Under the pieces are notes generated by a model. That model was not told the DNA's origin. It did no database searches and worked only from the letters and a program-made list of their open reading frames with translations. Made by a program: the position numbers and the translations under genes. This document shows, one piece after another, positions 6,709 through 27,951 of a stretch of 37,638 nucleotides of DNA (its first letter is position 1; each line of letters begins with the position of its first letter). This stretch comes from a virus. Where the stretch lies: positions 1-37,638 of the IMG/VR virus record IMGVR_UViG_3300044699_000135; one strand, 5' to 3'.

Positions 6709-6740
6709 GATCAGGATCAACAGAGACACTTGATTTTGGC

Positions 6741-7646: not shown

Positions 7647-7768
7647 TATTACGGTAACGACTGTTGGTGGTGCTGTTACTATTGATGGAGCTACAACATT
7701 TGTGATGAATACTGCTTATGAATCTGCCAATTTTATCTTCAATGGCACATCCTACGAGGTATTCTAAT

Positions 7769-9243: not shown

Positions 9244-9245
9244 TT

Positions 9246-9940: not shown

Positions 9941-9948
9941 GGGATAAT

Positions 9949-10659
9949 ATGGCGACAAATAATTCAATTAATGGCGATAGTATTCCGTTAGTTGTTAGGA
10001 GTGATGGCACTGGTTTAACTACAATAGGTGCTGATGGAATACTATATGGTAATGGAGCATCGGCAATTGGTGTAACGGCTGCTGGTACTGCGGCTCAAGT
10101 ATTAACAAGTAATGGCGCTAGTTCTGCCCCAACTTATCAAGCTATGCCTGCCGGTAGTCTCATTGAAATTCAATCACAAACAGCAAGCGCATCTGCTACA
10201 CTATCTTTTACCACTGGCATTACATCTACTTATAACTGTTATCTACTTAAATGGGCTGTATATCCAGGAACATCCAATGTTTCTTTCAGAATGCAGGTAT
10301 CAACAAATGGAGGAAGTAGTTATCTTGGCGCTGGTTATTTAAGTGGTGCTAATAAGGGAATATATTCCACTAATGTTTTTACCAATGTAAATTCAACGTC
10401 TGTTGTTTTATTATCTGGTGGTGACCTTGCGGGTACTAATAATATAGGATGTTCAGGACAAGCTTATCTTTATAATGTTACTAATGGTTCTAATTTTTGC
10501 ATGAGCGGCACTTCTTCATATTTAATACTTGCTAGTAATGTGACATTTTGTTTATTACAAGCTAATTCAACTATTAATACCATAAATGCCCTTCAGTTTA
10601 GTATGAGTAGTGGAAATATATCTGTTGGTAGAATAACTCTTTATGGAATAGTGGAGTAA
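9949..10659 (+). CDS. Tail fibre paralogue 3 of 3 (intact)
   Basis: 236 residues, intact. The N-terminal module GTGLTTIGADGILYGNGASA...QVLTSNGASSAPTYQA, then LIEIQSQTASASATLSFTTG ITSTY, and a beta-rich C-terminal domain ending NALQFSMSSGNISVGRITLY. It is the only one of the three tandem copies without a frame break and is the reference for reading the others. Copies keep the N-terminal module and the last ~30 residues and differ most in the middle, as expected when receptor-binding regions diversify. It is 8 bases after copy 2 and 3 bases before the glycine-rich gene, so all are cotranscribed. Confidence 0.75.
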   Translation: MATNNSINGDSIPLVVRSDGTGLTTIGADGILYGNGASAIGVTAAGTAAQVLTSNGASSAPTYQAMPAGSLIEIQSQTASASATLSFTTGITSTYNCYLLKWAVYPGTSNVSFRMQVSTNGGSSYLGAGYLSGANKGIYSTNVFTNVNSTSVVLLSGGDLAGTNNIGCSGQAYLYNVTNGSNFCMSGTSSYLILASNVTFCLLQANSTINTINALQFSMSSGNISVGRITLYGIVE

Positions 10660-10662
10660 CTA

Positions 10663-12243
10663 ATGTCTAATTTAAATGCAACAGGTGGTGGCCTGCGTTA
10701 TAGGGGTACGAATGCTCCGCAGCCGCCCAACTGTAACTTTCACCCACGAGATCCCAATGATTTTGATCGTTTTGGGTACTCTCTTTTAGACATGTGGCTT
10801 AATACTGTTACACAAACACCCTGGTGGTTAGTTGCTCTTGAAGGAACATCTTCTTCTGGCGGCATTAGAGCAACCTGGGTGACCTTTGGTGGCGCATCAG
10901 CCGGGGTAATAAACACAAAGGGTAATGATGGCGTTGCGGTATTTCCTGATGTATCTGGCAATCTTAATATTATTGGTACCGACCCACTGTTTGTTACTGG
11001 AACTCCTGGTACGAACACTGAGACTATAACGGTAGCTACGGCCACAACTGCTCAAATTGGGGTGACTACGCTTGCTACTAATGCATTAACGATAGCTGGC
11101 GCTAGTACTACAACAGTTAACACGCCAGCTTCATTAAAGGCTAAGCTTGGTGCGCAGACACTCAATGGGTTGCCGTATGGTCAAGGACAAACAGCTGCTA
11201 TTGCGTGGACTGCTGCAGGCACCAATGGCCAAGTTCCTATTGCTGCAACTGGTGGAGCGCCTGCATTTGCCACTCTCACTTCTAGTGATGGTTCTATTAC
11301 GTTTGCTACAAGCCCAAATGGTCTAGATCTTACCGCTGCTATTGCGGGTGGTAGTTCAATCATAACTACCGTTTATGATACGCCTGGTACCTATGCATTC
11401 ACTAAAAATACAGCCACTAAAAAGATAGAAATATGGGGATGGGCTGGTGGTGGTGGTGGTTCAGGAACAGGAGCAAGTGGGGCGGCTGGTGATGCATTTC
11501 ATTATAGCTTTCCTGCTTTTTTTGTAGATGATGGTCCTACAACTATACCGGTAGTAGTTGGTGCTGGCGGAGCTGGTGGAGTTGGAGTTAGTGGATTGGG
11601 AGTCGCTGGCGGTCCCTCCTGGTTTGGAAATTTTACTACGGGGCATAATTTAGGATCAGCAGCACGAGCAACAGGTATTAATTCACTAGCAGCTTCCCCT
11701 ACGGTAGTTACTGAAGGCAGCAATGCATGGCCAGGAGATCTATCAACTACATTTACCATTGGTGGAATTACCGGTACTGATGATGGAATTCTTTCTGGGT
11801 TTCCTGGTAGACCTTCTCCTTTTGGTGCTATTACTAGGAATGCGGATGATGGCGTAAATTCAGGAACAGGAAGTGTTAATAACGTTCTTGGTTCTATGCT
11901 AGGAGGTGCTGGAGGCGGCGGTGGAAGTTCTTCAACATCAGCTCCTGCTGGTGGTAGTGGTGGTGGCATAAGAAATAGAAGAACTATTTCTTTAATAGCA
12001 AGTGGTGGTGCAGGCGGTGCTGTTGGAATAGCAGGATCTCCTGGTACTGATACCTATCCCGCTCCTGCTGGGTTTAACTTTTTATCTGGAGGAACTGGCG
12101 GTGGTGGTGGTGGTTCTGGTGCAACTGGAACTGGTGGCGCTGGTGGATTTCCAGGTGGTGGTGGCGGGGGTGCTGGTGCTGGAGCAACTGGCGGTGCCGG
12201 TGGCGATGGTTTAGTTATTGTTATGGAATTTTTATCTGACTAA
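10663..12243 (+). CDS. Tail fibre/adhesin with glycine-rich C-terminal domain
   Basis: 526 residues. The N-terminus (RGTNAPQPPNCNFHPRDPND, then WLNTVTQTPWWLVALEG) is an attachment-like module related in plan to that of the gene at 2615. The middle has TTTVNTPASLKAKLGAQTLN and NGQVPIAATGGAPAFATL, a typical fibre shaft module. From about residue 250 the protein becomes glycine-rich, with runs such as WGWAGGGGGSGTGASGAAGD, GGAGGGGGSSSTSAPAGGSG and FPGGGGGGAGAGATGGAGGD, ending GLVIVMEFLSD. Such domains are known in phage adhesins (for instance gp38-type polyglycine-II sandwiches) and in glycine-rich fibre tips. It closes the fibre block and is followed by a strong terminator. Confidence 0.72.
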   Translation: MSNLNATGGGLRYRGTNAPQPPNCNFHPRDPNDFDRFGYSLLDMWLNTVTQTPWWLVALEGTSSSGGIRATWVTFGGASAGVINTKGNDGVAVFPDVSGNLNIIGTDPLFVTGTPGTNTETITVATATTAQIGVTTLATNALTIAGASTTTVNTPASLKAKLGAQTLNGLPYGQGQTAAIAWTAAGTNGQVPIAATGGAPAFATLTSSDGSITFATSPNGLDLTAAIAGGSSIITTVYDTPGTYAFTKNTATKKIEIWGWAGGGGGSGTGASGAAGDAFHYSFPAFFVDDGPTTIPVVVGAGGAGGVGVSGLGVAGGPSWFGNFTTGHNLGSAARATGINSLAASPTVVTEGSNAWPGDLSTTFTIGGITGTDDGILSGFPGRPSPFGAITRNADDGVNSGTGSVNNVLGSMLGGAGGGGGSSSTSAPAGGSGGGIRNRRTISLIASGGAGGAVGIAGSPGTDTYPAPAGFNFLSGGTGGGGGGSGATGTGGAGGFPGGGGGGAGAGATGGAGGDGLVIVMEFLSD

Positions 12244-16488: not shown

Positions 16489-17344
16489 TATCAACCCCAT
16501 TTCGTGGAAGCGCCCGGGTATTAACAAAAAGAGATTTTATGACCAGCAAGCGCATGAAAAATTAGCAACGGGCATTTACTTACTCCAACAGCATGGCAAA
16601 AGCCCGACATTTACTAAGCCACTTCATGTTGAAGCTAACTTTTATATGCCTATACCAGCCCATACGGGCAAACGTGAGAAAACAAACTGGTGTTCAAAGT
16701 TCCCTGATCTTGATAATCTGTCCGCGTTTATATTCGACTGTATCAATGATACCGGTGTTATTTGGAAGGATGATAAATTGGTAGTTTCTCTTATCAGTAA
16801 GAAAGTTTATGATAAAAATTCCCCGCACACATATTACTATTACGGAATTAGTATGAGTGAAGCTAACAAACATACCACTGTCAAAAAGATAAAACCAAGT
16901 AAGAAGCCCTCCCGTGTTGATCCAGCGATGCAATTCTCGTTTCGGACACGGCCAGTAAGCCAAGCTTTAATCGATCATATGATAGAGGAATTACCTATGT
17001 GGCCGTTTAAGAATCCCAAGAGAAATTCGATACTAGAGTTTCACTTATCTTATGGGATTTCTCGTGCTGGATTTCGGGGATTGCTTGATAAGTATCCAGC
17101 GCTGAAAGAGGCACATGAGGTTGCTCTGTTGAGATTAGCTGATAAGTTATGGGATGGGGCTATAACAAAAGTATATGATTGGGCACCAGTCAAGTTTAGA
17201 ATGAGAAAGTATGATAAAGAGTTTGAAGAAGATTTGAAGTTTCATGCTTCTCTTTCAGCTGATGCTATTACAAAAGCCAATGAGACATTGAACAATAAGA
17301 ATCCAATTACGGTGGTGATTAATAGAGATAGCGTTAATGAATAA
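16463..17344 (+). CDS. rusA: RusA-type Holliday junction resolvase fused to a small-terminase-like domain
   Basis: 293 residues from 16463; this start is preferred to the ATG at 16457 because AGGAG (16451-16455) is spaced 7 bases from it. Residues 1-~130 are RusA-like: INPISWKRPGINKKRFYDQQ at the start and the metal-binding signature FPDLDNLSAFIFDCINDTGV followed by WKDDKLV (Asp of PDLDN and the DD pair). RusA cuts four-way junctions in recombination and before packaging. After a basic linker (VKKIKPSKKPSRVDP) comes a ~150-residue domain with LEFHLSYGISRAGFRGLLDK and YPALKEAHEVALLRLADKLW. This has the helix-turn-helix pattern of phage small terminase subunits ('-F--LL-KYP-L--AHE-A'). The fusion and the location upstream of the large terminase suggest a joint role in DNA processing. 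RusA is firm; the terminase part is inference. Confidence 0.78.
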   Translation: MLSKEYVININPISWKRPGINKKRFYDQQAHEKLATGIYLLQQHGKSPTFTKPLHVEANFYMPIPAHTGKREKTNWCSKFPDLDNLSAFIFDCINDTGVIWKDDKLVVSLISKKVYDKNSPHTYYYYGISMSEANKHTTVKKIKPSKKPSRVDPAMQFSFRTRPVSQALIDHMIEELPMWPFKNPKRNSILEFHLSYGISRAGFRGLLDKYPALKEAHEVALLRLADKLWDGAITKVYDWAPVKFRMRKYDKEFEEDLKFHASLSADAITKANETLNNKNPITVVINRDSVNE

Positions 17345-17603
17345 GTTTGTCTTGCTATTGCTTATTATGACACCCTGTATGGCCTCGCACTATGGCAGAT
17401 TCTGTCAGGAGACTAAGCCTGAAGTATTACTCGTCGATCCTGACTTGTATCGTGCTGGCATGAGTTTCTTTTTTGGTGGTAGTAACAATAGGTTTGTTGA
17501 TGCTACGCCGCTTGAGCCTGAATTTGCTGCTGGGACTACTGAGTTCTCTTGTATGAGGATTGTTGCTTGCCGCTTTGGTCATTACTATCGTCATAGGCGG
17601 TAA
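17337..17603 (+). CDS. Secreted or membrane-anchored small protein, possible frame error at its end
   Basis: 88 residues with an N-terminal signal-like sequence MNKFVLLLLIMTPCMASHYG, possibly cleaved after CMAS, then a short soluble region (ETKPEVLLVDPDLYRAGMSF FFGG). The stated C-terminus (RIVACRFGHYYRHRR) is odd. One base over, the same DNA reads LLLAALVITIVIGGNVIGYI EGKD to a stop at ~17633, a perfect transmembrane helix. A one-base error near 17555, or a tiny overlapping gene, is likely. It overlaps the RusA-like gene's end by 8 bases and precedes the secreted-protein cluster. No function known. Confidence 0.5.
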   Translation: MNKFVLLLLIMTPCMASHYGRFCQETKPEVLLVDPDLYRAGMSFFFGGSNNRFVDATPLEPEFAAGTTEFSCMRIVACRFGHYYRHRR

Positions 17604-17655: not shown

Positions 17656-18153
17656 ATGAAATGGTTATTGCTAGCGTTTATGGTCACGTCATGTTTTGCT
17701 TCAGATAATTTTGAGATGACTCAAATAGAGCCTTCTAGTGTGAGAGCTTCTGAGGCATTAGGTAACGTTAAGCTTTATCATGATGGAAGTAGTTTTCTGT
17801 TAGAAAGAAACGATAGTGGCAAAATGGTGATTGATACTAGTCAGTTAGATATTCTTCTGCGCAAGATAGTTGTATCATCACATCGAGTTGAGCAATTTCA
17901 GAAATGTTCATTCATAAAAGTTGATGTTGACTGTTTTGGTGATTATTTTCTGACTTCCCATGTTCGTGGTCCTGGTGGCGGTCTTATCCTTGGTGGTGGT
18001 GTAGCTATCAGTGGTTATGGTGGTGCAATTCTTTTGGGTGTATTGGGTACCATCCCAACGCCTGCATCTCCTTGGCTTTTGGGAACTGCGGCATTTCTTG
18101 CGGCCAGCACACCAGTAGCGGCAACAATTGCCACTGTTAGCCCAACCTTGTAG
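17656..18153 (+). CDS. Secreted protein A with Gly-rich hydrophobic tail (three-member phage family)
   Basis: 165 residues. A signal peptide MKWLLLAFMVTSCFA is followed by a ~75-residue domain: EPSSVRASEALGNVKLYHDG, SSFLLERNDSGKMVIDTSQL DILLRKIVVSSHRVEQF, and GDYFLTSHVRGPGGG. The same domain occurs in the proteins at 25457 and 26583. After the GGG the tail becomes hydrophobic and Gly/Ala-rich (LILGGGVAISGYGGAILLGV, TAAFLAASTPVAATIATV), able to insert in a membrane. Small membrane-protein genes follow at once. This looks like a secreted membrane-active protein with possible partners, for example a bacteriocin-like, exclusion or host-surface factor; that role is inference. It resembles, from memory, secreted proteins of Babeliae. 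Confidence 0.6.
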   Translation: MKWLLLAFMVTSCFASDNFEMTQIEPSSVRASEALGNVKLYHDGSSFLLERNDSGKMVIDTSQLDILLRKIVVSSHRVEQFQKCSFIKVDVDCFGDYFLTSHVRGPGGGLILGGGVAISGYGGAILLGVLGTIPTPASPWLLGTAAFLAASTPVAATIATVSPTL

Positions 18154-18161
18154 CGAGCATA

Positions 18162-18344
18162 ATGTTTAAATTTGCTTCATTATTCAGATGGTATCGCTTT
18201 AAGAAAGAGTTTTTCTCGATACTCTTTTTAAGCACTATTCAGGCATGGATTGCCTTTAACTTTAAGATGGTTAGCTCGCCCTATAATGAGATCATAGGGC
18301 TACTTGGCTGCTTGGCGATACTTAGTAGTCTTTATGAATGCTGA
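18162..18344 (+). CDS. Small membrane protein, first part of a partner pair
   Basis: 60 residues. After a basic start (MFKFASLFRWYRFKKEFF) come two hydrophobic segments, SILFLSTIQAWIAFNF and EIIGLLGCLAILSSLY. It lies 8 bases after secreted protein A and overlaps the next small membrane gene by 11 bases. The two together have the size and plan of the 99-residue membrane protein at 26169 that follows secreted protein B. They may be one gene split by an indel or two coupled genes. Function unknown; it may be a partner, immunity or anchoring protein for protein A. Confidence 0.5.
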   Translation: MFKFASLFRWYRFKKEFFSILFLSTIQAWIAFNFKMVSSPYNEIIGLLGCLAILSSLYEC

Positions 18345-18546
18345 CCGTGTGCCAAAAATACCGTTCAACAAGTATCATGTTATGTTCTATGCTTATATGT
18401 TCTGTTGTATGACTATTGGTACGTATATGGCATGGTCTTACGATATGTACCATGCTCCTACGCAAGCCTATGTTATGTACTATGTGTACATGCTGTCATT
18501 TCAGTCGCTATTTTTACATGCTATGTATCGGCCATTTGATGATTAA
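18334..18546 (+). CDS. Small membrane protein, second part of a partner pair
   Basis: 70 residues from the ATG at 18334 (MNADRVPKIPFNKYHVMFYA), which overlaps the preceding stop; the ATG or alternative start at 18304 would overlap far more. Two hydrophobic segments, VMFYAYMFCCMTIGTYMAWS and AYVMYYVYMLSFQSLFLHA, are rich in Tyr and Met. Its end overlaps the large terminase start by 8 bases, so translation of the terminase may depend on it. No known family. Confidence 0.5.
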   Translation: MNADRVPKIPFNKYHVMFYAYMFCCMTIGTYMAWSYDMYHAPTQAYVMYYVYMLSFQSLFLHAMYRPFDD

Positions 18547-19804
18547 TACAGAAGATAAGCTGATACTCAATGCCTTTCAGCCGCGATCATACCAAAAAGA
18601 GATCATACAGGCCCTTGACGATGGTTTTAAGAAGCTGGTAATAGTCTTGCCTCGTCGTGCGGGGAAAGATATCACTGCATGGAATATTGCCATTGAACAG
18701 TGCTTAAAGAAGATATGCTTGGTGCAGTATATATTGCCCACCTTTGGCCAAGCGCGTCGTTGTATATTTGAGGCAATTGCTATTGATGGTACTAAGTTCA
18801 TTGAATATATTCCGCCACGACTTATACAGAAGATAAACGTATCTGAACAGAAGGTAGTGTTCATTAATGGTTCTGTTCTCCAGTGTCTTGGTGGTGAGAC
18901 CCATGACACCGCTATTCGTGGTACTAATCCCTACATGGTGATACTCTCAGAGTATGCGTATATGTCACCCGCAGTATATGATACCGTTCGTCCCATCCTT
19001 GCTGCTAATGATGGGATATGTATATTCCTATCGACTCCCTATGGAAAGAATCACTTTTATCAACTCTTTCAAGTAGCTAAAACATATCCCGACTGGTTTG
19101 TGATGCACAAAGGAGTTAAGGATACTAAACACATATCCTTTGAAGCACTTGAACAGGAACGCCAACAGATGTCGTCCGAGCTCTTTGCGCAAGAATATGG
19201 CTGTAGTTTTGATCGCGGGGTTGATGGTTCTTATTACGGTAAGTATCTCCAGCGCGCTAAAGAAGAGGGTCGTATTACTCATGTTGCCCATGATCCTGGC
19301 CTATTAACTCATGTTGCTATTGACATTGGGGTGAATGATGCAACGACTATGGTATGGTATCAGACAGTTGGTGATGGCACGGTGATACGAATTATTGATT
19401 GTTATCGCAATACTGGTCTGGGTCTTGACCATTATGTGCATGTGCTCAATGAAAAGCCATACAACTATGGCAAGTACTTTGCTCCTCATGACTTGATGGT
19501 TCGTGAGTGGGGAGGTGGTGCTATAACTCGCTATGAAAAAGCACGCCAACTTGGTATTAACTTTACGGTCCTTGAGCAGATTTCTGTTATGGATGGTATT
19601 GAAAATGTATGGACTCACTTTCCTAAGTTTTGGATAGATTCAGAAAAGTGTAAGTCGCTCATTAATGCTATGGAGAACTATCGCAGAGAGTTTGATGTTG
19701 AACGAAATGTGTACAAAAATAAACCTGTGCATGACGTGCACAGTGACTTTTGTGACAGTTTGCGTTATCTCTGTCAGTCATTGCATAAGACTAAAAAGGT
19801 CTAA
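18539..19804 (+). CDS. terL: Terminase large subunit (C-terminus probably cut by a base error)
   Basis: 421 residues from 18539, the start that gives a short overlap with the upstream gene; the longer frame from 18416 only extends into that gene. ATPase: Walker A VLPRRAGKD near residue 36, Walker B YMVILSE near 140, then a coupling motif (FLSTPYGKNHF). Nuclease: AIDIGVNDATT (first catalytic Asp), a central APHDLMVREWGGG, and HDVHSDFCDSLRY near the end. It powers headful-type DNA packaging and cuts the concatemer. The frame ends at KTKKV, but one base over the DNA reads GLTPEEFDRKRAEARYGPNH FKQQIFNHDPRYER to a stop at 19902. That looks like the real C-terminus: one A missing in the AAAAA at 19793-19797, or a -1 slip there. 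Confidence 0.88.
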   Translation: MINTEDKLILNAFQPRSYQKEIIQALDDGFKKLVIVLPRRAGKDITAWNIAIEQCLKKICLVQYILPTFGQARRCIFEAIAIDGTKFIEYIPPRLIQKINVSEQKVVFINGSVLQCLGGETHDTAIRGTNPYMVILSEYAYMSPAVYDTVRPILAANDGICIFLSTPYGKNHFYQLFQVAKTYPDWFVMHKGVKDTKHISFEALEQERQQMSSELFAQEYGCSFDRGVDGSYYGKYLQRAKEEGRITHVAHDPGLLTHVAIDIGVNDATTMVWYQTVGDGTVIRIIDCYRNTGLGLDHYVHVLNEKPYNYGKYFAPHDLMVREWGGGAITRYEKARQLGINFTVLEQISVMDGIENVWTHFPKFWIDSEKCKSLINAMENYRREFDVERNVYKNKPVHDVHSDFCDSLRYLCQSLHKTKKV

Positions 19805-19950
19805 CGCCTGAAGAGTTTGACCGTAAAAGAGCAGAAGCACGCTATGGTCCTAATCATTTTAAGCAGCAGATATTTAACCATGATCCAAGGTATGAGCGAT
19901 AAATAATTTAATCTAACACTTGTTGTCTCTTTAATATTGCGCTTAGACTT

Positions 19951-19970
19951 TTGATAATTAATTATCAAAG
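19951..19970. repeat. 20-base perfect palindrome before the portal gene
   Basis: TTTGATAATTAATTATCAAA reads the same on both strands and ends 10 bases before the portal ATG, overlapping the AAAGGA ribosome site. It could be an operator, or in RNA a hairpin covering the ribosome site. It shares GATAA...TTATC with the inverted repeat at 2575-2592. Confidence 0.55.
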
Positions 19971-19980
19971 GATTTAACCA

Positions 19981-21519
19981 ATGCTGATCAGGCCTCCAGA
20001 ATCATTAGCAAAAGACTTTAGTGCCATTAAAAATAAAATGGACAATGATTACACCCAGAACCTCTCTTTATGGTCTATTGGGTGGTCTCAAGGCAACATT
20101 GATGTGCGTTTAGAAGCGGGTGACCAATCATTAATGGCCCAGCTTAATGCCAATACGCTTACGCAATCGACTAATTCCTACTATTTCAATAGAGTTCGTC
20201 CTATTTGTAATATGGTTTCTGGTTATCAGCGGCGCAACCGTAAAAGTACGGTTGTTGTCCCTTTAGAGAATGGTGACCAACACACCGCTGATCAATTTAC
20301 AAAGATATTGTTGCATATATACAAGCGTGAGAATGTCTACGAAATGATATCGGAAGCATTCCATCAGGGCGCCTGCGTTACTGGGATGAACTTACTCCAA
20401 GTATACCTAGATTTTACTAATGATCCGCTTAATGGTGATATAAAGGTTGATAATCTTGCCTACAATGAGTATATGATTGACCCGTATTTCAGAAAGCCTG
20501 ATCTTTCAGATGCGTCGTTTGTCTGGCGTAGATCCTACATGACTCACTCAGCAGCAGCGGCTATCATGCCAGAAGATCAATATGATACGATTATGGCCCT
20601 TAATGGGAATCCGCAGGGTATGGCCCGTGATGGCAAGTTCCAGTATATGCCAGAAGCATTTGGTTACGCCCAAGGAAATAGAGTTTCCTATGATGAGTAT
20701 TGGTACCGTGATTATCGTCGCGCTAAGTTCTTATATGACACCAATACCGGTGAGATGATTGACATTACCCGTAACGAGAAGGTAGATATAGATCGTTTTA
20801 TTGCCGACAATCCACAAATCAAGTTAACTGAACGAAGTGTCCCAACGGTTCGTTTGGCTATAATGATTCAAGATAAGGTGTTTTACGATGGCGAAAATCC
20901 ACTTGGTATTGATGATTATCCTTTCATCCCTGTTATTGGTTTCTATAATAAATCTATGCCTTATATGTATCAGCGAATATCAGGTATCTGTCGATCCTTA
21001 CGCGACCCACAGATCTTATTTAATCGACGGGTTATTTTATCCGCAGATCTACTCGAGTCCCAAGTAAACTCTGGCTGGCTCTTTAAGGAAAATGCCCCAG
21101 TTGATGTTAAGCACTTATTCCAGACTGGCCAGGGGCGCATAATACCGATTAAAGATGAAGCACAGATGACTGATATTCAGCCGATTGTGCCGCCACAGAT
21201 ACCCCCTTCTTTCTTTCAGTTGCAAGAGGTGTTTGATAAAGAGCTCTATAACTGCGCTGGTCTGTCAGAAGAGAACTTGGGTAAGATTGTTGAAGATAAT
21301 GCCTCTGGGTATCTTTCAGCATTGCGTCAAGGTGCTGGGCTTACGGCTCAACAGCCAATATTTGATCGCTTAGACTTGTCCCAGAACATGCTTGGTGAGC
21401 GGATAATGCAGATAGTGCAGGCTAATTACACCCGGGCAAGATACAGCGATTACTTGAAGGTGAGCAGCCAGCCGACTTGTTTTATAATAAGGCATTTGGT
21501 AAATATCATTGTGCCGTAG
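19981..21519 (+). CDS. Portal protein, N-terminal ~485 residues (P22-type)
   Basis: 512 residues as written, of which the last ~28 are out of frame. P22-type portal features: NSYYFNRVRPICNMVSGYQR RNRKS early, then MISEAFHQGACVTGMNLLQV, NLAYNEYMIDPYFRKPDLSD, EYWYRDYRRAKFLYD, PFIPVIGFYNKSMPYMYQRI SGICRSLRDPQ, and NASGYLSALRQGAGLTAQQP before GERIMQIVQANYT. The portal forms the dodecameric ring at one capsid vertex through which DNA is packaged. After ANYT the frame reads RARYSDYLK..., whereas the frame starting at 21432 reads PGKIQRLLEGEQPADLFYNK and joins the next gene. One C missing at the CCC at 21431-21433 explains this. Combined length would be about 690 residues, close to P22 portal (725). 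Confidence 0.85.
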   Translation: MLIRPPESLAKDFSAIKNKMDNDYTQNLSLWSIGWSQGNIDVRLEAGDQSLMAQLNANTLTQSTNSYYFNRVRPICNMVSGYQRRNRKSTVVVPLENGDQHTADQFTKILLHIYKRENVYEMISEAFHQGACVTGMNLLQVYLDFTNDPLNGDIKVDNLAYNEYMIDPYFRKPDLSDASFVWRRSYMTHSAAAAIMPEDQYDTIMALNGNPQGMARDGKFQYMPEAFGYAQGNRVSYDEYWYRDYRRAKFLYDTNTGEMIDITRNEKVDIDRFIADNPQIKLTERSVPTVRLAIMIQDKVFYDGENPLGIDDYPFIPVIGFYNKSMPYMYQRISGICRSLRDPQILFNRRVILSADLLESQVNSGWLFKENAPVDVKHLFQTGQGRIIPIKDEAQMTDIQPIVPPQIPPSFFQLQEVFDKELYNCAGLSEENLGKIVEDNASGYLSALRQGAGLTAQQPIFDRLDLSQNMLGERIMQIVQANYTRARYSDYLKVSSQPTCFIIRHLVNIIVP

Positions 21520-22052
21520 AACTCGGGTTTAATACCGAGACACAAAAGCAGATGGAATTTGCACAGCTTATTCATTTGCGGGAAGTTGGCATTAAGATAT
21601 CCGATGCGGCAATGATTAGTAAAGCAACGATCCAGGGGAAAGATGAGCTCGTCAAAGAAATGCAGAATGCAGATCAGAAACAACAACAGATACAAGAGTT
21701 ACAGGCTAAAGTCCAGCTCCAAGAGCTCCAAGCCAAAACTGAGCTTGCCCATGCACGTAGCGAGGCAGACCGTGGTCTTGCTTATGAGCGTATCTCCCGC
21801 GTGGAAGAGAATCACGCATTGGCTCAAAAGCAAGTTGCAGAAGCTAATAAAGAGGATGAGCTCGCCTTACTTAATAAGGTGAAGATACTCAAAGAGCTTG
21901 AATCTATAGATCTGTCTCATTTACAGGTCCTGATCAACTTGTCTAATTCAATGAAGCTTGCTGAACAGCAGACAGTCAAACCTACACAGCCCTTAAAGCC
22001 GCAAGAAGCAGCGATAGCCAAAGGGGATGAGCAACAACCGCAACCTCAATAA
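21477..22052 (+). CDS. Portal protein, C-terminal part in a shifted frame
   Basis: 191 residues; the TTG start is an artefact. The first part LFYNKAFGKYHCAVELGFNT and MISKATIQGKDELVKEMQ match what follows in P22-like portals. Then comes a long coiled coil (QIQELQAKVQLQELQAKTEL, then SEADRGLAYERISRVEE) ending LSHLQVLINLSNSMK and a Pro/Gln tail. Such a helical barrel is typical of P22-type portals. Read from 21432 it joins the previous gene after a one-base correction. On its own it has no good ribosome site, so it is the same gene unless frameshifting is programmed. Confidence 0.75.
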   Translation: MFYNKAFGKYHCAVELGFNTETQKQMEFAQLIHLREVGIKISDAAMISKATIQGKDELVKEMQNADQKQQQIQELQAKVQLQELQAKTELAHARSEADRGLAYERISRVEENHALAQKQVAEANKEDELALLNKVKILKELESIDLSHLQVLINLSNSMKLAEQQTVKPTQPLKPQEAAIAKGDEQQPQPQ

Positions 22053-22065
22053 AAGTGAGATGGTA

Positions 22066-22392
22066 ATGTACGATCGTAAAGCAAAGTTAGAAAAGCATGG
22101 GTTAAGAGATCATAAATTGTATGGCATATGGGGCTATATTAAGTCAAGTTGTTACAATACTAATAGCACTGCTTATGACATTATTGGTGCTCGTGGCATA
22201 AAGGTCTGTAATGAATGGTCTAAATCTTTTAAGGCTTTTCATGACTGGGCATTACAGAATGGCTGGCATTATAACTATATGATGAAAAGAAAAGATCTTA
22301 AGAAGGATTATACGCCTGAAAATTGTTATTTTTATCCGCGTAGTGAAACAATTAAAGAAGAAAAGAAATCCTCAGTTAGAGGTGTTTGTTAA
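22066..22392 (+). CDS. Phage AP2/HNH-associated type protein
   Basis: 108 residues from 22066; ATGs at 22060 and 22027 are alternatives, and the last overlaps the portal end. The core KLYGIWGYIKSSCYNTNSTA YDIIGARGIKVCNEW followed by SFKAFHDWALQNGW and YTPENCYF follows the well-known phage pattern 'LY--W--M--RCYN...YGGRGI-VC-EW--SF--F--WA--NGY...Y-PENC-W'. That family is often found in homing-type genes and near AP2 DNA-binding domains. The usual 'RID-DGNY' is replaced by RKDLKKDYTP. It could be a third mobile homing-type gene, placed between portal and accessory genes. Confidence 0.65.
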   Translation: MYDRKAKLEKHGLRDHKLYGIWGYIKSSCYNTNSTAYDIIGARGIKVCNEWSKSFKAFHDWALQNGWHYNYMMKRKDLKKDYTPENCYFYPRSETIKEEKKSSVRGVC

Positions 22393-22435
22393 CCCTTGTA
22401 GTGTAAAAGACTACAGTTTCTAGAAGGAGGCTAAA

Positions 22436-22846
22436 ATGGCCAAGAAGAGAAAGTATAGCGGAGTCGCTAGTATGCGCGATGAGTTTGTAGAGCATGGACG
22501 TCGCTTTAATGCGAGCGAAGGTCCTGGTTACTATAGCGACCGTTTTGATGCGAGTGAAGATCGTGTCTATAGCAGAGAGCGCTATAGTTCAAGAGATGTA
22601 ACATCAGGTCCTGGCTATCAGACCCGTAAAATGGCGCCAAATAATGGTATGAACTCAGGTATTCTCAAAGAAGATATGTCACGTCCGTGTGGTCTTCCTA
22701 TGGGTGCCATACAGAAAGATATGGGTAATGGTGCCTACTTCTCAATGAATGGTTATCGTGTTGGCGATCTGTATGAACAAGTTGATAAGAGCATGCGTGA
22801 AGACTCGGCTGCGGTGAAGACTTTAACAAAACCGCATAACTGGTAA
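22436..22846 (+). CDS. Basic Tyr/Arg-rich protein of the structural region
   Basis: 136 residues, preceded by a very strong ribosome site (AAGGAGG). The N-terminal half is rich in Arg, Ser and Tyr with related units (GPGYYSDRFDASEDRVYSRE, VTSGPGYQTRKMAPNNG). The second half has MSRPCGLPMGAIQKDMGNGA and FSMNGYRVGDLYEQVDKSMR. No recognised domain, signal or membrane segment. High expression signals and position between portal and capsid suggest a minor virion protein. Confidence 0.6.
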   Translation: MAKKRKYSGVASMRDEFVEHGRRFNASEGPGYYSDRFDASEDRVYSRERYSSRDVTSGPGYQTRKMAPNNGMNSGILKEDMSRPCGLPMGAIQKDMGNGAYFSMNGYRVGDLYEQVDKSMREDSAAVKTLTKPHNW

Positions 22847-22874
22847 CAATTCTATTTGTAATTACAGGTGGACT

Positions 22875-23030
22875 ATGCCAGGACAAATACGTCCCGATGC
22901 TAAATTAAAGAAGCTTGCGTATAAGATTTTGCAGACGCCAAAAGAGTTGCAGCAAAAGAATACACCAAAGCCGTCTGAAAAGCGTTATAATGCATGGCAC
23001 ATTAATTCATCGTGGGCAACTTTACGATAG
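22875..23030 (+). CDS. 51-aa basic protein
   Basis: Short frame beginning MPGQIRPDAKLKKLAYKILQ and ending NAWHINSSWATLR, with AGGTGG just upstream. It is basic and helical at its start. It lies 28 bases after the previous gene and is followed immediately by a strong terminator, which supports it being a real last gene of the transcript. Function unknown. Confidence 0.5.
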   Translation: MPGQIRPDAKLKKLAYKILQTPKELQQKNTPKPSEKRYNAWHINSSWATLR

Positions 23031-23042
23031 AGCCTATTGTTC

Positions 23043-23076
23043 GGGGTCACCTGTGTAGCGCGGGTGGCCCCTTTTT
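23043..23076 (+). terminator. Rho-independent terminator
   Basis: GGGGTCACC (23043-23051) pairs with GGTGGCCCC (23063-23071) through one G-U, loop 11 bases, followed by TTTTT. It closes the terminase-portal transcript. Confidence 0.8.
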
Positions 23077-23088
23077 GTGGAGTTTTGC

Positions 23089-23148
23089 ATGAAAAAGAAT
23101 TGTTCCCGCTGTAAAAAGAGTCAATGTTCCTGTAAAAAGGGTTTCTAA
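23089..23148 (+). CDS. 19-aa Cys/Lys-rich mini-protein
   Basis: Tiny frame MKKNCSRCKKSQCSCKKGF, with four cysteines in a CxxC...CxC layout that could bind a metal. Its stop overlaps the next start (TAATG), and GTGGAG lies just upstream, features of a real translated frame. Coding status is uncertain because of its length. Confidence 0.35.
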   Translation: MKKNCSRCKKSQCSCKKGF

Positions 23149-23372
23149 TGGCTATGTTAGATTTTAATAAACCTGTTCAAAAGAAGGTGGAGTCAGTTGC
23201 TCCGGTTAAACCAGCTGCGCCGGTACAACAAGTTAAGAAGAGTGTTATGCCACCCAAGGTTGAAGAAAAGCCGCTGCCTAAAATGGAAGCTCAGCCTATA
23301 AAAGAAGTTGAGCCGGTACGTGAGCCTGATTCTCTTATTAGGCGGTTGCGATTTAAAAATAGAAGAAAGTAG
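23148..23372 (+). CDS. Proline/lysine/valine-rich low-complexity protein
   Basis: 74 residues. After MAMLDFNKPVQKK it consists of Pro-Val-Lys-Glu repeats (VAPVKPAAPVQQVKKSVMPP, EKPLPKMEAQPIKEVEPV) and ends in a very basic tail (RRLRFKNRRK). Such extended Pro-rich proteins act as linkers or span envelope layers. It resembles in style the Pro-rich frame at 24908. It starts on the stop of the mini-protein upstream. No function can be given. Confidence 0.5.
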   Translation: MAMLDFNKPVQKKVESVAPVKPAAPVQQVKKSVMPPKVEEKPLPKMEAQPIKEVEPVREPDSLIRRLRFKNRRK

Positions 23373-23448
23373 TAATCAATTTATACAGAGAAAGGACCAT
23401 GGAGCTTTTTGTGAGGTTATTATACATATTTAAATGAAGAGGGTTTAT

Positions 23449-24879
23449 ATGAATAATTGTTGTGATTGTAGCAAAAGAGATGAATTAGATATCTGTAAAT
23501 TACATGCAGAAAAGGCAAAGATAGATTGTCTGTGCGCTTCAAATATGAAGGGCAAAAGTCTTAATGTAATGGATGAGGTTGCTAATAATATCTGTGCACA
23601 GAAGGTTCAAGCTAAATTAGTTGAAGCGATGACCTTGAATGCAAATGATTTGTGTTCTCAGCGTGCGACTATTAATGAGTTATGTGTTGATAATCTTATC
23701 GCGCCTAATTTTCAAGGCGATAAATGTGAAAAGTTCCGTGCAGCGGTTACCCTTGCAGCAGATCAAATTTATAATTTACAAAGTCCCCTTAATTGGAACG
23801 TTATATTAGACGATCCTAATAGTAATGTGGCTGTTGGCCCATTCTCCTATACCGTGCCAGAATCTGGCTATTACCTACTAAACTATCACTTAGAGTCAGA
23901 CTCTCTTGCTGGATCAAGTGTTATTTCTGGTATTCCAACTGGTGTATTGAATGTTACGGTTAACGGTAGCGCCTTAATTACCAATCAGTCGGCCTATTTG
24001 TCTTTTACTGGTCTACAAAAGACGAACTTAACTTCACTTGTATTGCTCAATATGGGCGATGTTCTTCATATGAATTATGAAGTGCTGTCCCTTGATCCAG
24101 TATTAGGTCTGGTATCTTATGTTGGTACGGTGTCAGCTAAAGGTAATGGTTTACTCCCTGGCAAGAGCTTCTTTACGATTCACTTCCAGTCTTCGTTGAA
24201 TTGCCAGCCAGGAGATCCATGTATATCAGTTGGCCAAACGGATGCTAATGGTAATGCTTCAGGCGTTGTTCCTGGCGGTAACTTTGCAGTCGGCCAATAC
24301 TTCACGATTGGTGCAGAAGTAGACACCATAGTAAGCGCTGTTCCTGGTGCTCAACCAATGAGTTCAACAGGCCCATCGTCAGTTCATACTTTCGATATAA
24401 GTAATGGTGCGTATGTTATTGTAGGAGCTCCAGCAAATATGCCAATTAGATTTTGTACCCCATCATTGAAACCGGTATGTATGACTATTGGTCAAACAAA
24501 TGCATCTGGTGATATATCAGGTATCGCTCCTGGTGGCTCATTTTCTGTTGGCCAGTATTTCATGATTGGTGCAGAGAAGGATACTATTGTAAGTGCATTG
24601 CCTGGCTATCAACAAATGGCATCTACCGGACCATCTACCATACATTTGTTTGATATAAACTCTGGTTCTTATATCATCGCTGGCGCTCCAGTTAATGCAG
24701 CGGTTCTCTTCTGCCAACCATCATCGGCTGGCTGTAAAGTGTGCCCGCCGGTACAAACACCATGTAGCCCGATTGAAGTGGATTGTCATAACCATGGCGA
24801 TATGCAATGTTTACCGATGAACTCGGCAAACCCAATACAGTGTATTCCATGTAATCCCTGTAACCCCGGGAGTAGGTAA
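23449..24879 (+). CDS. Cysteine-rich virion-type protein with C1q/TNF-like domain and two 80-aa repeats
   Basis: 476 residues from 23449, chosen because AGAGGG (23439-23444) is correctly spaced; the ATG at 23434 is not. Residues 1-~100 are Cys-rich and helical (NNCCDCSKRDELDICKLHAE, ASNMKGKSLNVMDEVANNIC). Residues ~115-255 look like a C1q/TNF-type jelly roll (VGPFSYTVPESGYYLLNYHL). Two repeats of ~80 residues follow: CISVGQTDANGNASGVVPGG...FCTP and CMTIGQTNASGDISGIAPGG...FCQP. The Cys/Pro-rich end (CKVCPPVQTPCSPIEVDC, CIPCNPCNPGSR) probably continues out of frame in the next entry. It may be a virion decoration or host-surface-binding protein; the jelly-roll call is pattern-based. Confidence 0.6.
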   Translation: MNNCCDCSKRDELDICKLHAEKAKIDCLCASNMKGKSLNVMDEVANNICAQKVQAKLVEAMTLNANDLCSQRATINELCVDNLIAPNFQGDKCEKFRAAVTLAADQIYNLQSPLNWNVILDDPNSNVAVGPFSYTVPESGYYLLNYHLESDSLAGSSVISGIPTGVLNVTVNGSALITNQSAYLSFTGLQKTNLTSLVLLNMGDVLHMNYEVLSLDPVLGLVSYVGTVSAKGNGLLPGKSFFTIHFQSSLNCQPGDPCISVGQTDANGNASGVVPGGNFAVGQYFTIGAEVDTIVSAVPGAQPMSSTGPSSVHTFDISNGAYVIVGAPANMPIRFCTPSLKPVCMTIGQTNASGDISGIAPGGSFSVGQYFMIGAEKDTIVSALPGYQQMASTGPSTIHLFDINSGSYIIAGAPVNAAVLFCQPSSAGCKVCPPVQTPCSPIEVDCHNHGDMQCLPMNSANPIQCIPCNPCNPGSR

Positions 24880-24907
24880 ACCTATAGGGCAACACGTAGT
24901 ACGACCA

Positions 24908-25096
24908 GTGCCCCCCGTGATGCCGGCTGTAGCAAGGCCGTTTATTCCAGATGTTAAACTAAGTGCACCAGTAGTACCACCGGCCCCGAAGTTGGTAGAA
25001 TCACCGGTACCAAAGTTGGTAGAATCATTGGCAGAACAAAGGTCTAACAATAGAGCTGAACGATTAGCAATTCTAAAAGCTCGTCATAAGAAATAA
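24908..25096 (+). CDS. Pro-rich tail, probably the continuation of the C1q-like protein
   Basis: 62 residues starting at a GTG: PPVMPAVARPFIPDVKLSAP VVPPAPKLVESPVPKLVESL, ending in a basic helix AERLAILKARHKK. The same frame is open upstream through 24863 (TPGVGKPIGQHVVRPVPPVM), so removing one base near 24865 would fuse it to the Cys/Pro-rich end of the protein at 23449. As a separate gene it lacks a good ribosome site. Confidence 0.45.
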   Translation: MPPVMPAVARPFIPDVKLSAPVVPPAPKLVESPVPKLVESLAEQRSNNRAERLAILKARHKK

Positions 25097-25102
25097 AGGG
25101 AA

Positions 25103-25309
25103 ATGATGCCAATTCTTAAGAGAACTGCTTCTAAGAAAGCAAAGAAAAAGAGAATCGCGGATGAAATGCACAAGTTTAAAGCAGGAGAGCTTCACTCTGG
25201 TTCTAAAAAAGGACCGGTCGTGACCAATCCTAAGCAAGCGATTGCGATTTCATTGTCAGAAGCTGGTTCTTCTAAGAAGAAAATGAAGAAGAAGCCTAAG
25301 AAAAAGTAG
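25103..25309 (+). CDS. Small basic DUF6496-like protein
   Basis: 68 residues (67 from the second ATG). Very rich in Lys: RTASKKAKKKRIADEMHKFK, then AGELHSGSKKGPVVTNPKQA IAISLSEAG and a poly-Lys end. The middle matches the pattern of a small family found in bacteria and phages (HKFK-GELHSGSKKGP-V-N-KQAIAI-LSEA), which I recall as DUF6496. Its function is unknown; the charge suggests nucleic acid binding. GGGAAATG places the start close to a ribosome site. Confidence 0.7.
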   Translation: MMPILKRTASKKAKKKRIADEMHKFKAGELHSGSKKGPVVTNPKQAIAISLSEAGSSKKKMKKKPKKK

Positions 25310-25346
25310 AACTTGTTAGTGCGAACTCTCCCCGTGTTCGGCTTTT

Positions 25347-25375
25347 CCCCTGTAGTTAGTAAAATAACTATGGGG
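25347..25375 (+). terminator. Terminator-like hairpin
   Basis: CCCCTGTAGTTA pairs with TAACTATGGGG (25347-25375, small internal loop, loop GTAAAA). No good T-run follows (GATTTCTCTT), so it may be weak. It ends the group of accessory genes. Confidence 0.5.
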
Positions 25376-25383
25376 GATTTCTC

Positions 25384-25411
25384 TTGTATAGTTTGATTAG
25401 TTTAGTATACT
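25384..25411 (+). promoter_or_regulatory. Promoter-like sequence for the second secreted-protein cluster
   Basis: TTGTAT (25384-25389), 16-base spacer, TATACT (25406-25411, 5 of 6), about 45 bases before the start of the gene at 25457 and just after a terminator-like hairpin. This suggests the cluster is transcribed on its own. Confidence 0.5.
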
Positions 25412-25456
25412 TAGAAATAGTAGCAGCGTGTTAAAACAATTTACTAAGGTGTCTCT

Positions 25457-26155
25457 ATGAAAAAACTATTATTTCTATTTCTGATGTGTTCTCCTCTTGT
25501 AGGTATGAACAATCCATACGTTCAAAAGATTATGCCTAATTCTGTTCGTATGAAGAGTAATCTTGGTGGTGTTGATTTGTTTCATAATGGCAAAAACTTT
25601 GTTGCTGAGTACAACAATCAACGAAGAGTCATTCCTAATTATGATATTGATAAAGACCTAGCTAACATAGCTAAGTCGCCAGCTACTTTAAAATCGTTCC
25701 TGAATAATAATGGTCGCATTGGCGTAGGTAAGTATAACAATGGTGATTTGCATCTCAAGGCGCAGGTTCCTGGTGATGGTGGCGGATTAATTCTAGCGTG
25801 GGGTGCTTATTGGGCGGTGAAAATTGTCGGTAATTCAATTAAGTACTATCTTATTGCTAAAGTGGCTGAAAAGGTTGATACAGCTTATAGGCGGGGTAAT
25901 TCTGCTGATAAGATTGCGGCAACCGCTTTAGCGGCAGGTACAGCAAGTATTGTAACGGGTGTTTTACCACAACAGCAAACAGTAGATATGATAACTACCT
26001 TATGTCCTGTTGAAGAGGTAGCGGTGGTTGTTGAATCAGCTGCTAATACTGGAATTATTGTTGCTCATGAAATATCGGAAGTAACGAGTGGTATCGGTAT
26101 AGAGACGCTTGCTACTGCAGTATTTAATTTGTGTCTTCCTATAGGGCCTATATAA
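25457..26155 (+). CDS. Secreted protein B with Gly-rich hydrophobic tail (three-member phage family)
   Basis: 232 residues. Signal peptide MKKLLFLFLMCSPLVG, then the shared domain: MPNSVRMKSNLGGVDLFHNG, YDIDKDLANIAKSPATLKSF and GDLHLKAQVPGDGGG. It aligns residue by residue with proteins A (17656) and C (26583). After GGG there is a long hydrophobic C-terminal region, GLILAWGAYWAVKIVGNSIK, then AATALAAGTASIVTGVL and late hydrophobic stretches. It is followed by a 99-residue membrane protein and a 32-residue membrane peptide, echoing the layout after protein A. It probably passes the inner membrane and acts on an envelope layer; the biological role is unknown. Confidence 0.6.
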   Translation: MKKLLFLFLMCSPLVGMNNPYVQKIMPNSVRMKSNLGGVDLFHNGKNFVAEYNNQRRVIPNYDIDKDLANIAKSPATLKSFLNNNGRIGVGKYNNGDLHLKAQVPGDGGGLILAWGAYWAVKIVGNSIKYYLIAKVAEKVDTAYRRGNSADKIAATALAAGTASIVTGVLPQQQTVDMITTLCPVEEVAVVVESAANTGIIVAHEISEVTSGIGIETLATAVFNLCLPIGPI

Positions 26156-26168
26156 TCATAGGAATTAT

Positions 26169-26468
26169 ATGATCTTACCTAAATGGTTACATAGTCTTTT
26201 AGCTGATGGTGCTATTTATTCAGCTGCTTTTATCGTTTGTGATCTTATTAATAGTTATTACTTTAATAATTATTACTCAGAGTTCCGGCTGATTTTTTTG
26301 ATAATGATTATTAGTTTAATTATGAGCTCTTTTGAGGGCGCATTAGAAGATGAGCATCTATTCACTAAAAAACAATCTATTGTGATATTAGTGGTGTATT
26401 TAAGGACTATAAGAATGCTTGTTGCGGCATTTATAGCGATGGCTATCATGGGAAAATATCATGTTTAA
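26169..26468 (+). CDS. Three-helix membrane protein next to secreted protein B
   Basis: 99 residues with hydrophobic segments around residues 14-32 (GAIYSAAFIVCDLI), 38-56 (FRLIFLIMIISLIMSS) and 70-94 (IVILVVYLRTIRMLVAAFIA). Acidic loop EGALEDEHLF between the second and third. It lies 13 bases after protein B with a TAGGA ribosome site. Its plan resembles the two joined membrane frames after protein A (18162/18334). A partner, anchor or protective role for the secreted protein is possible but unproven. Confidence 0.55.
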   Translation: MILPKWLHSLLADGAIYSAAFIVCDLINSYYFNNYYSEFRLIFLIMIISLIMSSFEGALEDEHLFTKKQSIVILVVYLRTIRMLVAAFIAMAIMGKYHV

Positions 26469-26559
26469 CTGTTTTTTTCGGTGGCTTCCTCGTTTTATTA
26501 ATGACTGTATTCTTGCCTTTGTAATTATTTACCTTTTGATGAAGTATAATATTATTTAG
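26461..26559 (+). CDS. 32-aa membrane peptide
   Basis: MFNCFFRWLPRFINDCILAF then VIIYLLMKYNII: one hydrophobic helix after a basic start. It overlaps the end of the preceding membrane gene by 8 bases, as in coupled genes. Small size keeps confidence low. Confidence 0.4.
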   Translation: MFNCFFRWLPRFINDCILAFVIIYLLMKYNII

Positions 26560-26582
26560 TGTTATAAAGGAGAGTAGATTTT

Positions 26583-27038
26583 ATGATTAAGCAGCTCATT
26601 CTTACCCTATTGCTGGCATTCAATACCTATTCATTTTCTATGATTCCTGATGAACTTTTTCATCTTACGGAAGATTTTGTAGGGGACCTCAAAGATTCTA
26701 TTATTGTGTTTGATGATGGCGCTCCTGCTTTTAATCGTCATGAAGAGCCTGAAGATAGTTCTATAGTTAAAAAGATAGCTAATTATGCGGTAAAGTATCC
26801 ACCTTATTGGGGAAACGTCTCACTTTTTTATGATGGACATAATTTTTTAGTAGTGATTAATAATGGAGCGGAGTCTATTTCTAATAAAGATATTGATGAT
26901 TCGCTCAGGTTGTTAAAAGAATCGCCCTATGCGCTTAAAAAGTTCCAGAATCATGGTTTTATTAGGATCAATCAGAATCCGTTGGGAAGATTTTCTCTGA
27001 CTACTCATGTTAGATATTTACCAATAGTTCTTCATTGA
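26583..27038 (+). CDS. Secreted protein C, tail-less member of the family
   Basis: 151 residues. Signal peptide MIKQLILTLLLAFNTYSFS, an acidic insertion (FHLTEDFVGDLKDSIIVFDD), then the shared domain: IANYAVKYPPYWGNVSLFYD, NKDIDDSLRLLKESPYALKK and GRFSLTTHVR. Where A and B continue with G-GGG and a hydrophobic tail, this protein ends in YLPIVLH after a few residues. No Gly-rich tail is found in the other frames downstream, so the tail is really missing. It may be a decayed copy or a regulator or antagonist of the others. An AAGGAGAG ribosome site precedes it. Confidence 0.55.
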   Translation: MIKQLILTLLLAFNTYSFSMIPDELFHLTEDFVGDLKDSIIVFDDGAPAFNRHEEPEDSSIVKKIANYAVKYPPYWGNVSLFYDGHNFLVVINNGAESISNKDIDDSLRLLKESPYALKKFQNHGFIRINQNPLGRFSLTTHVRYLPIVLH

Positions 27039-27149: not shown

Positions 27150-27485
27150 ATGATGAAGTTATATTTATCGTTAGTAGCCTCTTTTTTGTTTTTTTCCCGT
27201 GCTATTCCAAATGATTTTATTGAATCGCCCGAGAGAAAGTATTCCATGGATCAGTTACAGGAAATCTGTGGTACTGGCCAAATGCGCTACTCTCCTAAAG
27301 AGTTAAGTTTTTACCAGCTTGATACGGGTGAGCTACTTCTTGTTATGATGCATGTTGAACGTTACCAACGCGAAGAGTTCTATTTTTACTGTTTTACGCC
27401 GACTGATGAAGTTAAATTTCTCTGTATGATCAGGCAAGGAGAGACTGTTGAGCACCATTGGATCCCAAATAACAGCACACAATAA
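27150..27485 (+). CDS. Small secreted protein
   Basis: 111 residues with a signal-like start MMKLYLSLVASFLFFSRAIP (two possible Met starts; GAAGGGATAG precedes them), then a soluble acidic domain: YSMDQLQEICGTGQMRYSPK, FYQLDTGELLLVMMHVERY, FYFYCFTPTDEVKFLCMIR. It does not align with proteins A-C. It overlaps the next gene by 38 bases. Function unknown; it may belong to the secreted cluster or to the head operon. Confidence 0.5.
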   Translation: MMKLYLSLVASFLFFSRAIPNDFIESPERKYSMDQLQEICGTGQMRYSPKELSFYQLDTGELLLVMMHVERYQREEFYFYCFTPTDEVKFLCMIRQGETVEHHWIPNNSTQ

Positions 27486-27951
27486 AAAGAATTTAGACCT
27501 TGAAGATGATGTGCGTGAATATACTAAGGCGATGACGCCACTGATTCTTCACACCTTGCAGGATACGGCTCTTAAAGCCTCACAGCACCCGCTTTATGAA
27601 AACCGTGACTTCTACCTAGTCTTTGTAAAAAACGTTGACCGTATCCTTGGTCAGCCTAAATTTCAATGCTGGGCCAGACGCTCGTGCCCAACGCCAGTTT
27701 ACAAGCAAGATGTCTACAAGTATCACCATTTATCGGGTGAAATAGAGTTTCTCTGGTGTATACCGTCGGCCCAGCGCTACTATCATATACTTGCTAATCG
27801 CCAGAAATACTTCGAGAATAAGAATACCAAGCGATTAGCCCAGTTTGTCTGCTTGATGGAATCGGGCGAATTGCTGCGTTGGGTGTTAAAGGAGAATGGG
27901 GAGTTGCCAGACGCTATAATAACTATAAACAAGGAACCGAGTGGAAAATAA
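27448..27951 (+). CDS. Conserved-type protein upstream of the scaffold gene
   Basis: 167 residues from a TTG at 27448; a later start near the in-frame ATG at ~27529 is possible, since the long overlap with the upstream gene is unusual. Helical and basic: EDDVREYTKAMTPLILHTLQ, FYLVFVKNVDRILGQPKFQC WARRSCPTPVYKQDVYKYHH, then FLWCIPSAQRYYHILANRQK. Position between portal and scaffold/capsid and coupled overlap with the scaffold gene (11 bases) suggest a head-assembly accessory protein. No named family is assigned. Confidence 0.55.
   Translation: MSTIGSQITAHNKKNLDLEDDVREYTKAMTPLILHTLQDTALKASQHPLYENRDFYLVFVKNVDRILGQPKFQCWARRSCPTPVYKQDVYKYHHLSGEIEFLWCIPSAQRYYHILANRQKYFENKNTKRLAQFVCLMESGELLRWVLKENGELPDAIITINKEPSGK

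Follow-up and report, generated by a model that had tools for sequence, protein, structure and literature searches.

The window analysed here comprises the 37,638 bases of the virus record IMGVR_UViG_3300044699_000135, derived from a podovirus-like tailed phage, and harbours three paralogous genes for predicted secreted proteins, here designated as W1 (nt 17656–18153, 165 aa), W2 (nt 25457–26155, 232 aa) and W3 (nt 26583–27038, 151 aa), all on the + strand. When W1 was used as query against its own record, W2 was retrieved with an expectation value (E) of 1.1e-13 and a position within the W3 gene (nt 26784) with an E of 1.1e-9; with an identity of 31–37% over the shared domain, the likeness of the three proteins is therefore not due to chance. 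A preliminary description of this DNA had announced three related secreted proteins sharing a domain of ≈75 residues; the open reading frames (ORFs) and their homology are borne out, whereas the domain has to be enlarged to ≈80–85 residues. Each protein begins with a signal-peptide-like stretch, followed by the domain (residues ≈21–105 in W2). As originally described, W1 and W2, and only these, continue through a GGG junction into a hydrophobic tail, short in the former and long in the latter, whereas W3 stops where the GGG would come and has neither a tail nor a membrane partner. None of the three matched any entry in Pfam or PHROG.

Starting 8 bases past the W1 stop codon, a putative membrane partner of 60 aa (nt 18162–18344, +) is encoded, which is weakly hydrophobic (1.41 in a 19-residue window) and overlaps a second putative partner of 70 aa (nt 18334–18546, +), overlapping in turn the start of the terminase gene. 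Similarly, a putative partner of 99 aa with three hydrophobic segments (nt 26169–26468, +) starts 13 bases past the W2 stop codon, and its end is overlapped by a 32-aa ORF with a single hydrophobic stretch (nt 26461–26559, +), that may represent a second W2 partner or a chance ORF. The distance of within ≈15 bases first reported for these small membrane ORFs is confirmed, but the term “multi-helix” was generous for ORFs of 60 and 32 aa. The second W1 partner and the W2 partner gave no match in Pfam, and no homologue of the W1 partners or of the W2 partner was detectable among the related contigs collected. A separate control of the two loci, also proposed, receives divided support: a terminator-like hairpin of 13 pairs (nt 25346–25377, +), predicted by pattern scan only, lies between the upstream late gene and W2, the scan having found 2 hairpins versus 1.3 ± 1.1 in shuffles, but the W1 cassette overlaps the terminase gene start.

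To define the family beyond the window, 80 related contigs were collected with the portal protein as query and searched with a profile of the three window domains, followed by iteration; additional members were recruited with a DNA motif for the best-conserved tail segment, YWxTKxxCYG. The domain was present in 22 of the 49 whole records searched, and ≈37 unique members were found in total, all in related uncultured podophages. Their layout consists of a signal peptide, the ≈80-residue domain, a GGG (or GSG, AGG) junction and a hydrophobic Gly/Ala-rich tail of ≈60–260 residues, for a full size of 101–409 aa, the signal-peptide-like start being recognised by inspection in nearly all members. 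The domain-only form, lacking the tail, is represented by W3 and by a gene of a kin phage (L007, nt 9770–10075). No convincing match was obtained for 33 full-length members in Pfam, NCBIfam and PADLOC; a weak match to PBCV_basic_adap in one member, as well as weak PADLOC and NCBIfam matches, were taken as chance. Named phages searched with W1 and with a member bearing a type A tail (see below) gave no match, and the only plasmid matches to the latter were two weak partial ones from Rhizobium (E 0.5). Scans with patterns drawn only from W1, W2 and W3 gave no match, and a 17-row alignment was too diverse for scanning; two scans of the genome collection, the second with a closer alignment, also returned nothing, with patterns so narrow that absence from cellular genomes is not implied.

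At least two tail types are well populated. In type A (…YWxTKxxCYG…FFGMLPTP), the protein encoded next has 65–70 aa and two hydrophobic segments, whereas in type B (…GKAAVYVVGHGAIQ…ATGPV) two overlapping proteins of 43–46 and 47–62 aa, with one hydrophobic segment each, come next. Profile comparison did not show homology between the two types past the first ≈25 residues. The W2 tail is marginally type A-like (E 0.13 with the type A tail profile), while the W1 tail matched neither profile and represents a type of its own. Glycine and alanine together make up 40% of the tails, and GxxxG spacings exceed those in shuffles of equal composition (135 versus 92.6 ± 7.9 in 31 tails), an excess overstated by the mutual relatedness of the tails; no excess was found for spacings 2, 3, 6 and 7.

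In the AlphaFold2 model of W2, the domain was predicted with high confidence (predicted local distance difference test, pLDDT, ≈95) and the helices of the tail with low to middling confidence (40–80). Modelled alone, the domain was also confident (mean 86, predicted template modelling score 0.73). Neither the full W2 model nor the domain alone convincingly matched solved or viral predicted structures in Foldseek and VIA-align; the best structural row for the domain, the N-terminal region of SAS-6 (Z 4.5, root-mean-square deviation 3.6, 82 residues), is within the noise of the tool. A missing structural match is no proof of a new fold. The analysis defines an unnamed protein family of ≈37 members, with a confidently predicted domain lacking a solved-fold match.

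The preliminary description had made its proposal depend on the co-occurrence and covariation of the membrane genes with the secreted proteins, and both were found. Counting as a partner any ORF of 34–115 aa with a hydrophobic 19-residue stretch and a start from −20 to +100 bases behind the gene, a partner lies directly behind 32 of 35 tail-bearing genes, as compared with 63 of the 715 remaining genes that code for 140 aa or more on these contigs (Fisher p 5e-28, a value too small since the members are related). The 32 partner ORFs are 38–99 aa long and start at −19 to +91 bases, and neither of the two domain-only genes is followed by one. This linkage is not a selection effect, because members recruited by the tail motif alone also carried a partner. 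In addition, the partner changes with the tail rather than with the domain: among 27 members, identities of tail and partner are correlated once the domain is accounted for (partial r 0.44, 0 of 2000 permutations), the corresponding value for domain and partner given the tail being 0.22. In single pairs, domains identical at 95% (L157–L088), 89% (L068–L115) and 99% (L158–L147) go with tails identical at 41, 32 and 74% and with partners at 26, 16 and 22%, respectively, on a measure for which unrelated hydrophobic peptides score ≈15–25%.

DNA comparison indicates that tail and partner are exchanged together as a cassette. Contigs L024 and L088 are 90% identical up to the GGG codons (nt 1807 of L088), ≈35% identical over the tail and both partner genes, and again 82% identical from nt 2267. 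In the pair L068–L115, an identity of 93–98% extends to nt 1747, is lost over the tail, the partner and a small secreted gene, and resumes at 96% from nt 2455. Assembly chimeras are an unlikely cause of these swaps, as the members of the pairs were assembled from different metagenomes, type B is found in several contigs and the flank identity resumes behind the cassette. Moreover, L155 and L165 encode a signal peptide, a tail and a partner without the domain, and a profile of type A partners from which that of L165 had been left out still recognises the latter (E 1.9e-7). On these sequences, the moving unit is the tail with its partner, the domain being a separate module, because identity breaks at the GGG and resumes behind the partner, and because L155 and L165 keep both in the absence of the domain. 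In these two pairs, recombination has thus replaced variable C-termini behind an N-terminal region that is conserved, and a downstream gene of the size of an immunity gene changes with the C-terminus, as in polymorphic toxin-immunity systems.

The usual slot of the members lies between the counterparts of window nt 25103–25309 and nt 27448–27951, and the members there mostly run against the structural genes; in the window, W2 and W3 fill this slot on the same strand as those genes. Of 22 records with a length of 30 kb or more, 12 carry the family and 10 lack it. The closest relative by portal identity (91%) is among the latter and has the slot filled by different signal-peptide genes, and several other kin have no secreted gene there. 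The slot is a place for dispensable secreted cargo, since its contents vary among kin and the family is absent from several of them. In the closest relative (L119), the region equivalent to window 25.3–27.4 kb (nt 8416–12018) contains about eight other signal-peptide genes, including three paralogues with a common C-terminal SPRTKRAKEEVDTLSIQQLQLLA motif, three genes for small Cys-rich proteins and one for a protein with a WHTFIL…FLHHCP motif, which may resemble the glycine-rich domain family. In many kin, another small secreted protein (MKKILLLSLLSS…) is encoded behind the partner gene (L024, nt 7760–8125; L088, nt 2311–2658, +; L040, L089 and L021); that of L024 contains a IGTIAYWLSKTVCTGS stretch, like the start of type A tails.

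A constant, presumably exported N-terminal part, a variable, putatively membrane-seeking C-terminal part, an adjacent membrane partner and the joint exchange of the last two give the family the anatomy of polymorphic toxin-immunity systems. We therefore favour, with a probability of roughly 60%, the reading that these genes code for phage-borne polymorphic, Sec-exported, membrane-acting toxins together with cognate membrane immunity proteins, as dispensable phage cargo. The exported protein would cross the inner membrane via its Sec signal peptide, and the conserved domain would serve for presentation, anchoring or delivery as the constant part; the hydrophobic tail past the GGG would insert into the bacterial inner membrane, depolarising it or forming a pore, while the small integral membrane protein or proteins encoded directly behind would neutralise the matching tail within the producing cell. 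By swapping tail and partner together through recombination at the GGG codons, specificity could be diversified and the domain kept. The likeliest use, although less certain than the toxin-immunity reading itself, is competition among phages or between infected and uninfected cells, because an antidote placed in the membrane of the producer points to a bacterial membrane as the one at risk: the infected cell or its phage would be protected, whereas competitors lacking the cognate partner, be they phages or sibling cells, would be harmed. Of the secreted toxin with a protective membrane protein, originally suggested as one of several options, the data uphold a matched pair whose C-terminus can be exchanged; this support does not extend to toxicity, the direction of protection or the target.

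The closest architecture is that of MafB, having a signal peptide, a lineage-specific domain, a variable C-terminus and downstream immunity genes, and of the APD1/APD2 effectors of Amoebophilus (Zhang et al. 2012, PMC3482391), with which the window family has in common the signal peptide, a lineage-specific globular domain and a polymorphic C-terminus. Unlike these, the members found lie on phages instead of chromosomes, the tail is hydrophobic and not an enzyme, and no MafA-like partner was seen; MafB-N (DUF1020) was not matched up to E 0.05 by the 33 members in Pfam, nor in NCBIfam. For the tail, the analogy is with toxins having a hydrophobic, membrane-acting C-terminus, namely the ionophore toxins of contact-dependent inhibition (CDI), paired with membrane CdiI proteins (PMC11630599), and EsxX/ExiCD and TspA/TsaI of the type VII secretion system (T7SS; PMC12744356). 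Both groups have small, polymorphic, cognate integral membrane immunity proteins. A glycine zipper, the toxic motif of EsxX, TelE and TspA, is countered in EsxX by paired membrane immunity proteins (PMC12744356), and the GxxxG repeats in the hydrophobic C-terminus of the window family are of this kind. The family differs from both groups in a predicted Sec signal peptide replacing the CdiA or LXG delivery domain, neither of which was matched in Pfam by the 33 members.

Class II microcins such as microcin V (PMC10233263) also combine a glycine-ending leader, a core active at the inner membrane and an adjacent, often overlapping membrane immunity gene. Their leader is, however, a double-glycine one of 15–18 residues, whereas the GGG of the family lies ≈105 residues in, behind a Sec signal peptide and a folded domain of ≈80 residues, and no C39-peptidase ABC exporter was present among the window genes scanned. 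As regards phages, the MuF polymorphic toxins of temperate phages (PMC5576092) share with the family phage-encoded polymorphic C-termini near packaging genes. The window family has no MuF domain (no Pfam match in 33 members, no PHROG match in W1, W2 and W3), is not visibly linked to the virion and belongs to phages for which 31 records searched yielded no tyrosine integrase. The secreted toxins of Sulfolobus spindle-shaped viruses (PMC8628083) are diverse, virus-encoded and proposed to favour infected over uninfected cells, with specific cross-protection; they belong to chronic viruses of Archaea, an unrelated host domain, and no relation is claimed.

Tight linkage and co-exchange of tail and partner are predicted equally by a membrane-remodelling form of superinfection exclusion, in which the two would build one hetero-oligomeric complex that changes the envelope and blocks phage entry, the partner being a subunit and not an antidote. 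Such a complex would also account for Sec export and rapid diversification, and would suit phages without an integrase. By itself, however, it leaves unexplained why partners are homologous within a tail type but differ in number and topology between types (one protein with two membrane segments versus two with one each), and we consider it unlikely.

Also improbable, in our view, is a host-directed effector, that is an exported protein acting on the membranes of the eukaryote in whose cell the bacterium lives, with the membrane protein as chaperone or translocation partner of the tail. The other signal-peptide genes in the slot of the closest kin, Cys-rich ones included, resemble a secreted-effector locus, and the Amoebophilus effectors pair constant N-terminal domains with variable C-termini (PMC3482391). 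The guess of a Babeliae/Dependentiae host fits the many signal-peptide genes, the secretome of one member of the Dependentiae making up 44% of its proteins (PMC6561590), but the bacterial host is unproven. Furthermore, a dedicated membrane partner that differs from one tail type to the next would be expected for immunity rather than for a chaperone, and zipper toxins of the EsxX type carry membrane immunity (PMC12744356).

A lysis cassette, in which the tail protein would be an atypical holin and its partner the antiholin, is the least probable reading: phage lysis genes are mosaic too, W1 and the L049 family gene lie just ahead of the terminase gene, a common lysis-gene site, and the latter, in a distant kin, is directly preceded by an M15_4-type peptidase gene (L049, nt 2685–3029), a possible endolysin, but in most kin the cassette strand is opposite to the late genes, the 10 records lacking the family and the kin with no secreted gene in the slot would miss it, the window has two tail-bearing copies, and the M15 peptidase, missing from the window, turned up in only 3 of the 24 records in which it was sought.

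Several points weigh against the toxin-immunity reading itself. Three tail-bearing genes have no partner directly behind them, namely that of L064 and the first genes of the tandem pairs in L167 and L170, and kinship among members inflates every statistic given above. The role of the domain is a guess, since its fold is unmatched. The pairing of W1 and W2 with their putative partners is drawn from gene position and from what is seen across the family, because these partners have no homologues among the contigs, W1 has a tail type to itself and the tail of W2 resembles type A only marginally. Finally, a search for tyrosine integrases that was positive in 14 of 14 control genomes gave none in the window and 30 related records, so that a long-lived infected state, where immunity would matter, is not evident.

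If the toxin-immunity reading is true, virulent-looking phages of uncultured bacteria carry pairs of a kind that bacteria are known to use against one another (Maf, CDI, T7SS), here built on a new constant domain and with cassette swapping plainly recorded in the DNA. While such systems are known as a type, the libraries searched contain neither this constant domain nor the cassette, nor the occurrence on phages. The natural chimeras, having the same domain with a different tail and partner, are a ready set for questions on toxin-immunity specificity and on a phage-versus-phage use. A wider picture is possible, and we put it forward tentatively: in an uncultured, probably intracellular bacterial group, phages might bear combinatorial Sec-exported membrane toxins with cognate immunity, trade their cassettes at the GGG and in this way settle which virus wins, or whether infected or uninfected symbionts prevail, within one eukaryotic cell. 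Similar hypothetical proteins presumably occur in Dependentiae, a lead rather than evidence. A limited search of open-access text retrieved no paper joining Dependentiae with polymorphic toxins, and none with the phrases tried for phage-encoded bacteriocins.

As for the remaining content of the window, it encodes a P22-type portal, and the large terminase is nearest to those of HTVC010P-like and cave-spring phages (34–38% identity); an Erf annealing protein, a RusA resolvase and a major head protein are also encoded. The portal profile is split over two ORFs (nt 19981–21519 and 21477–22052), kin having a single portal ORF of ≈680 aa; the split is a frameshift or a sequencing error near nt 21,480. 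Directly upstream of W1, a small secreted protein of 88 aa with a signal-peptide-like start is encoded (nt 17337–17603, +), which is outside the family, as the family profile matched only W1, W2 and W3 across the window. A second small protein with a signal-peptide-like start near the family genes (nt 27150–27485) is also a non-member. Three HNH endonuclease genes, probably for homing endonucleases, are located at nt 1017–1856 (−), 4496–5125 (+) and 22027–22392 (+), the first two being 76% identical at the DNA level in opposite orientation (nt 1200–1337 versus 4814–4951). Adjacent tail-spike-like ORFs at nt 5725–7646 contain internal DNA repeats (nt 6034–6198 versus 6619–6782, 78%; nt 6396–6591 versus 7193–7385, 73%), which suggests a duplication within the receptor-binding region.

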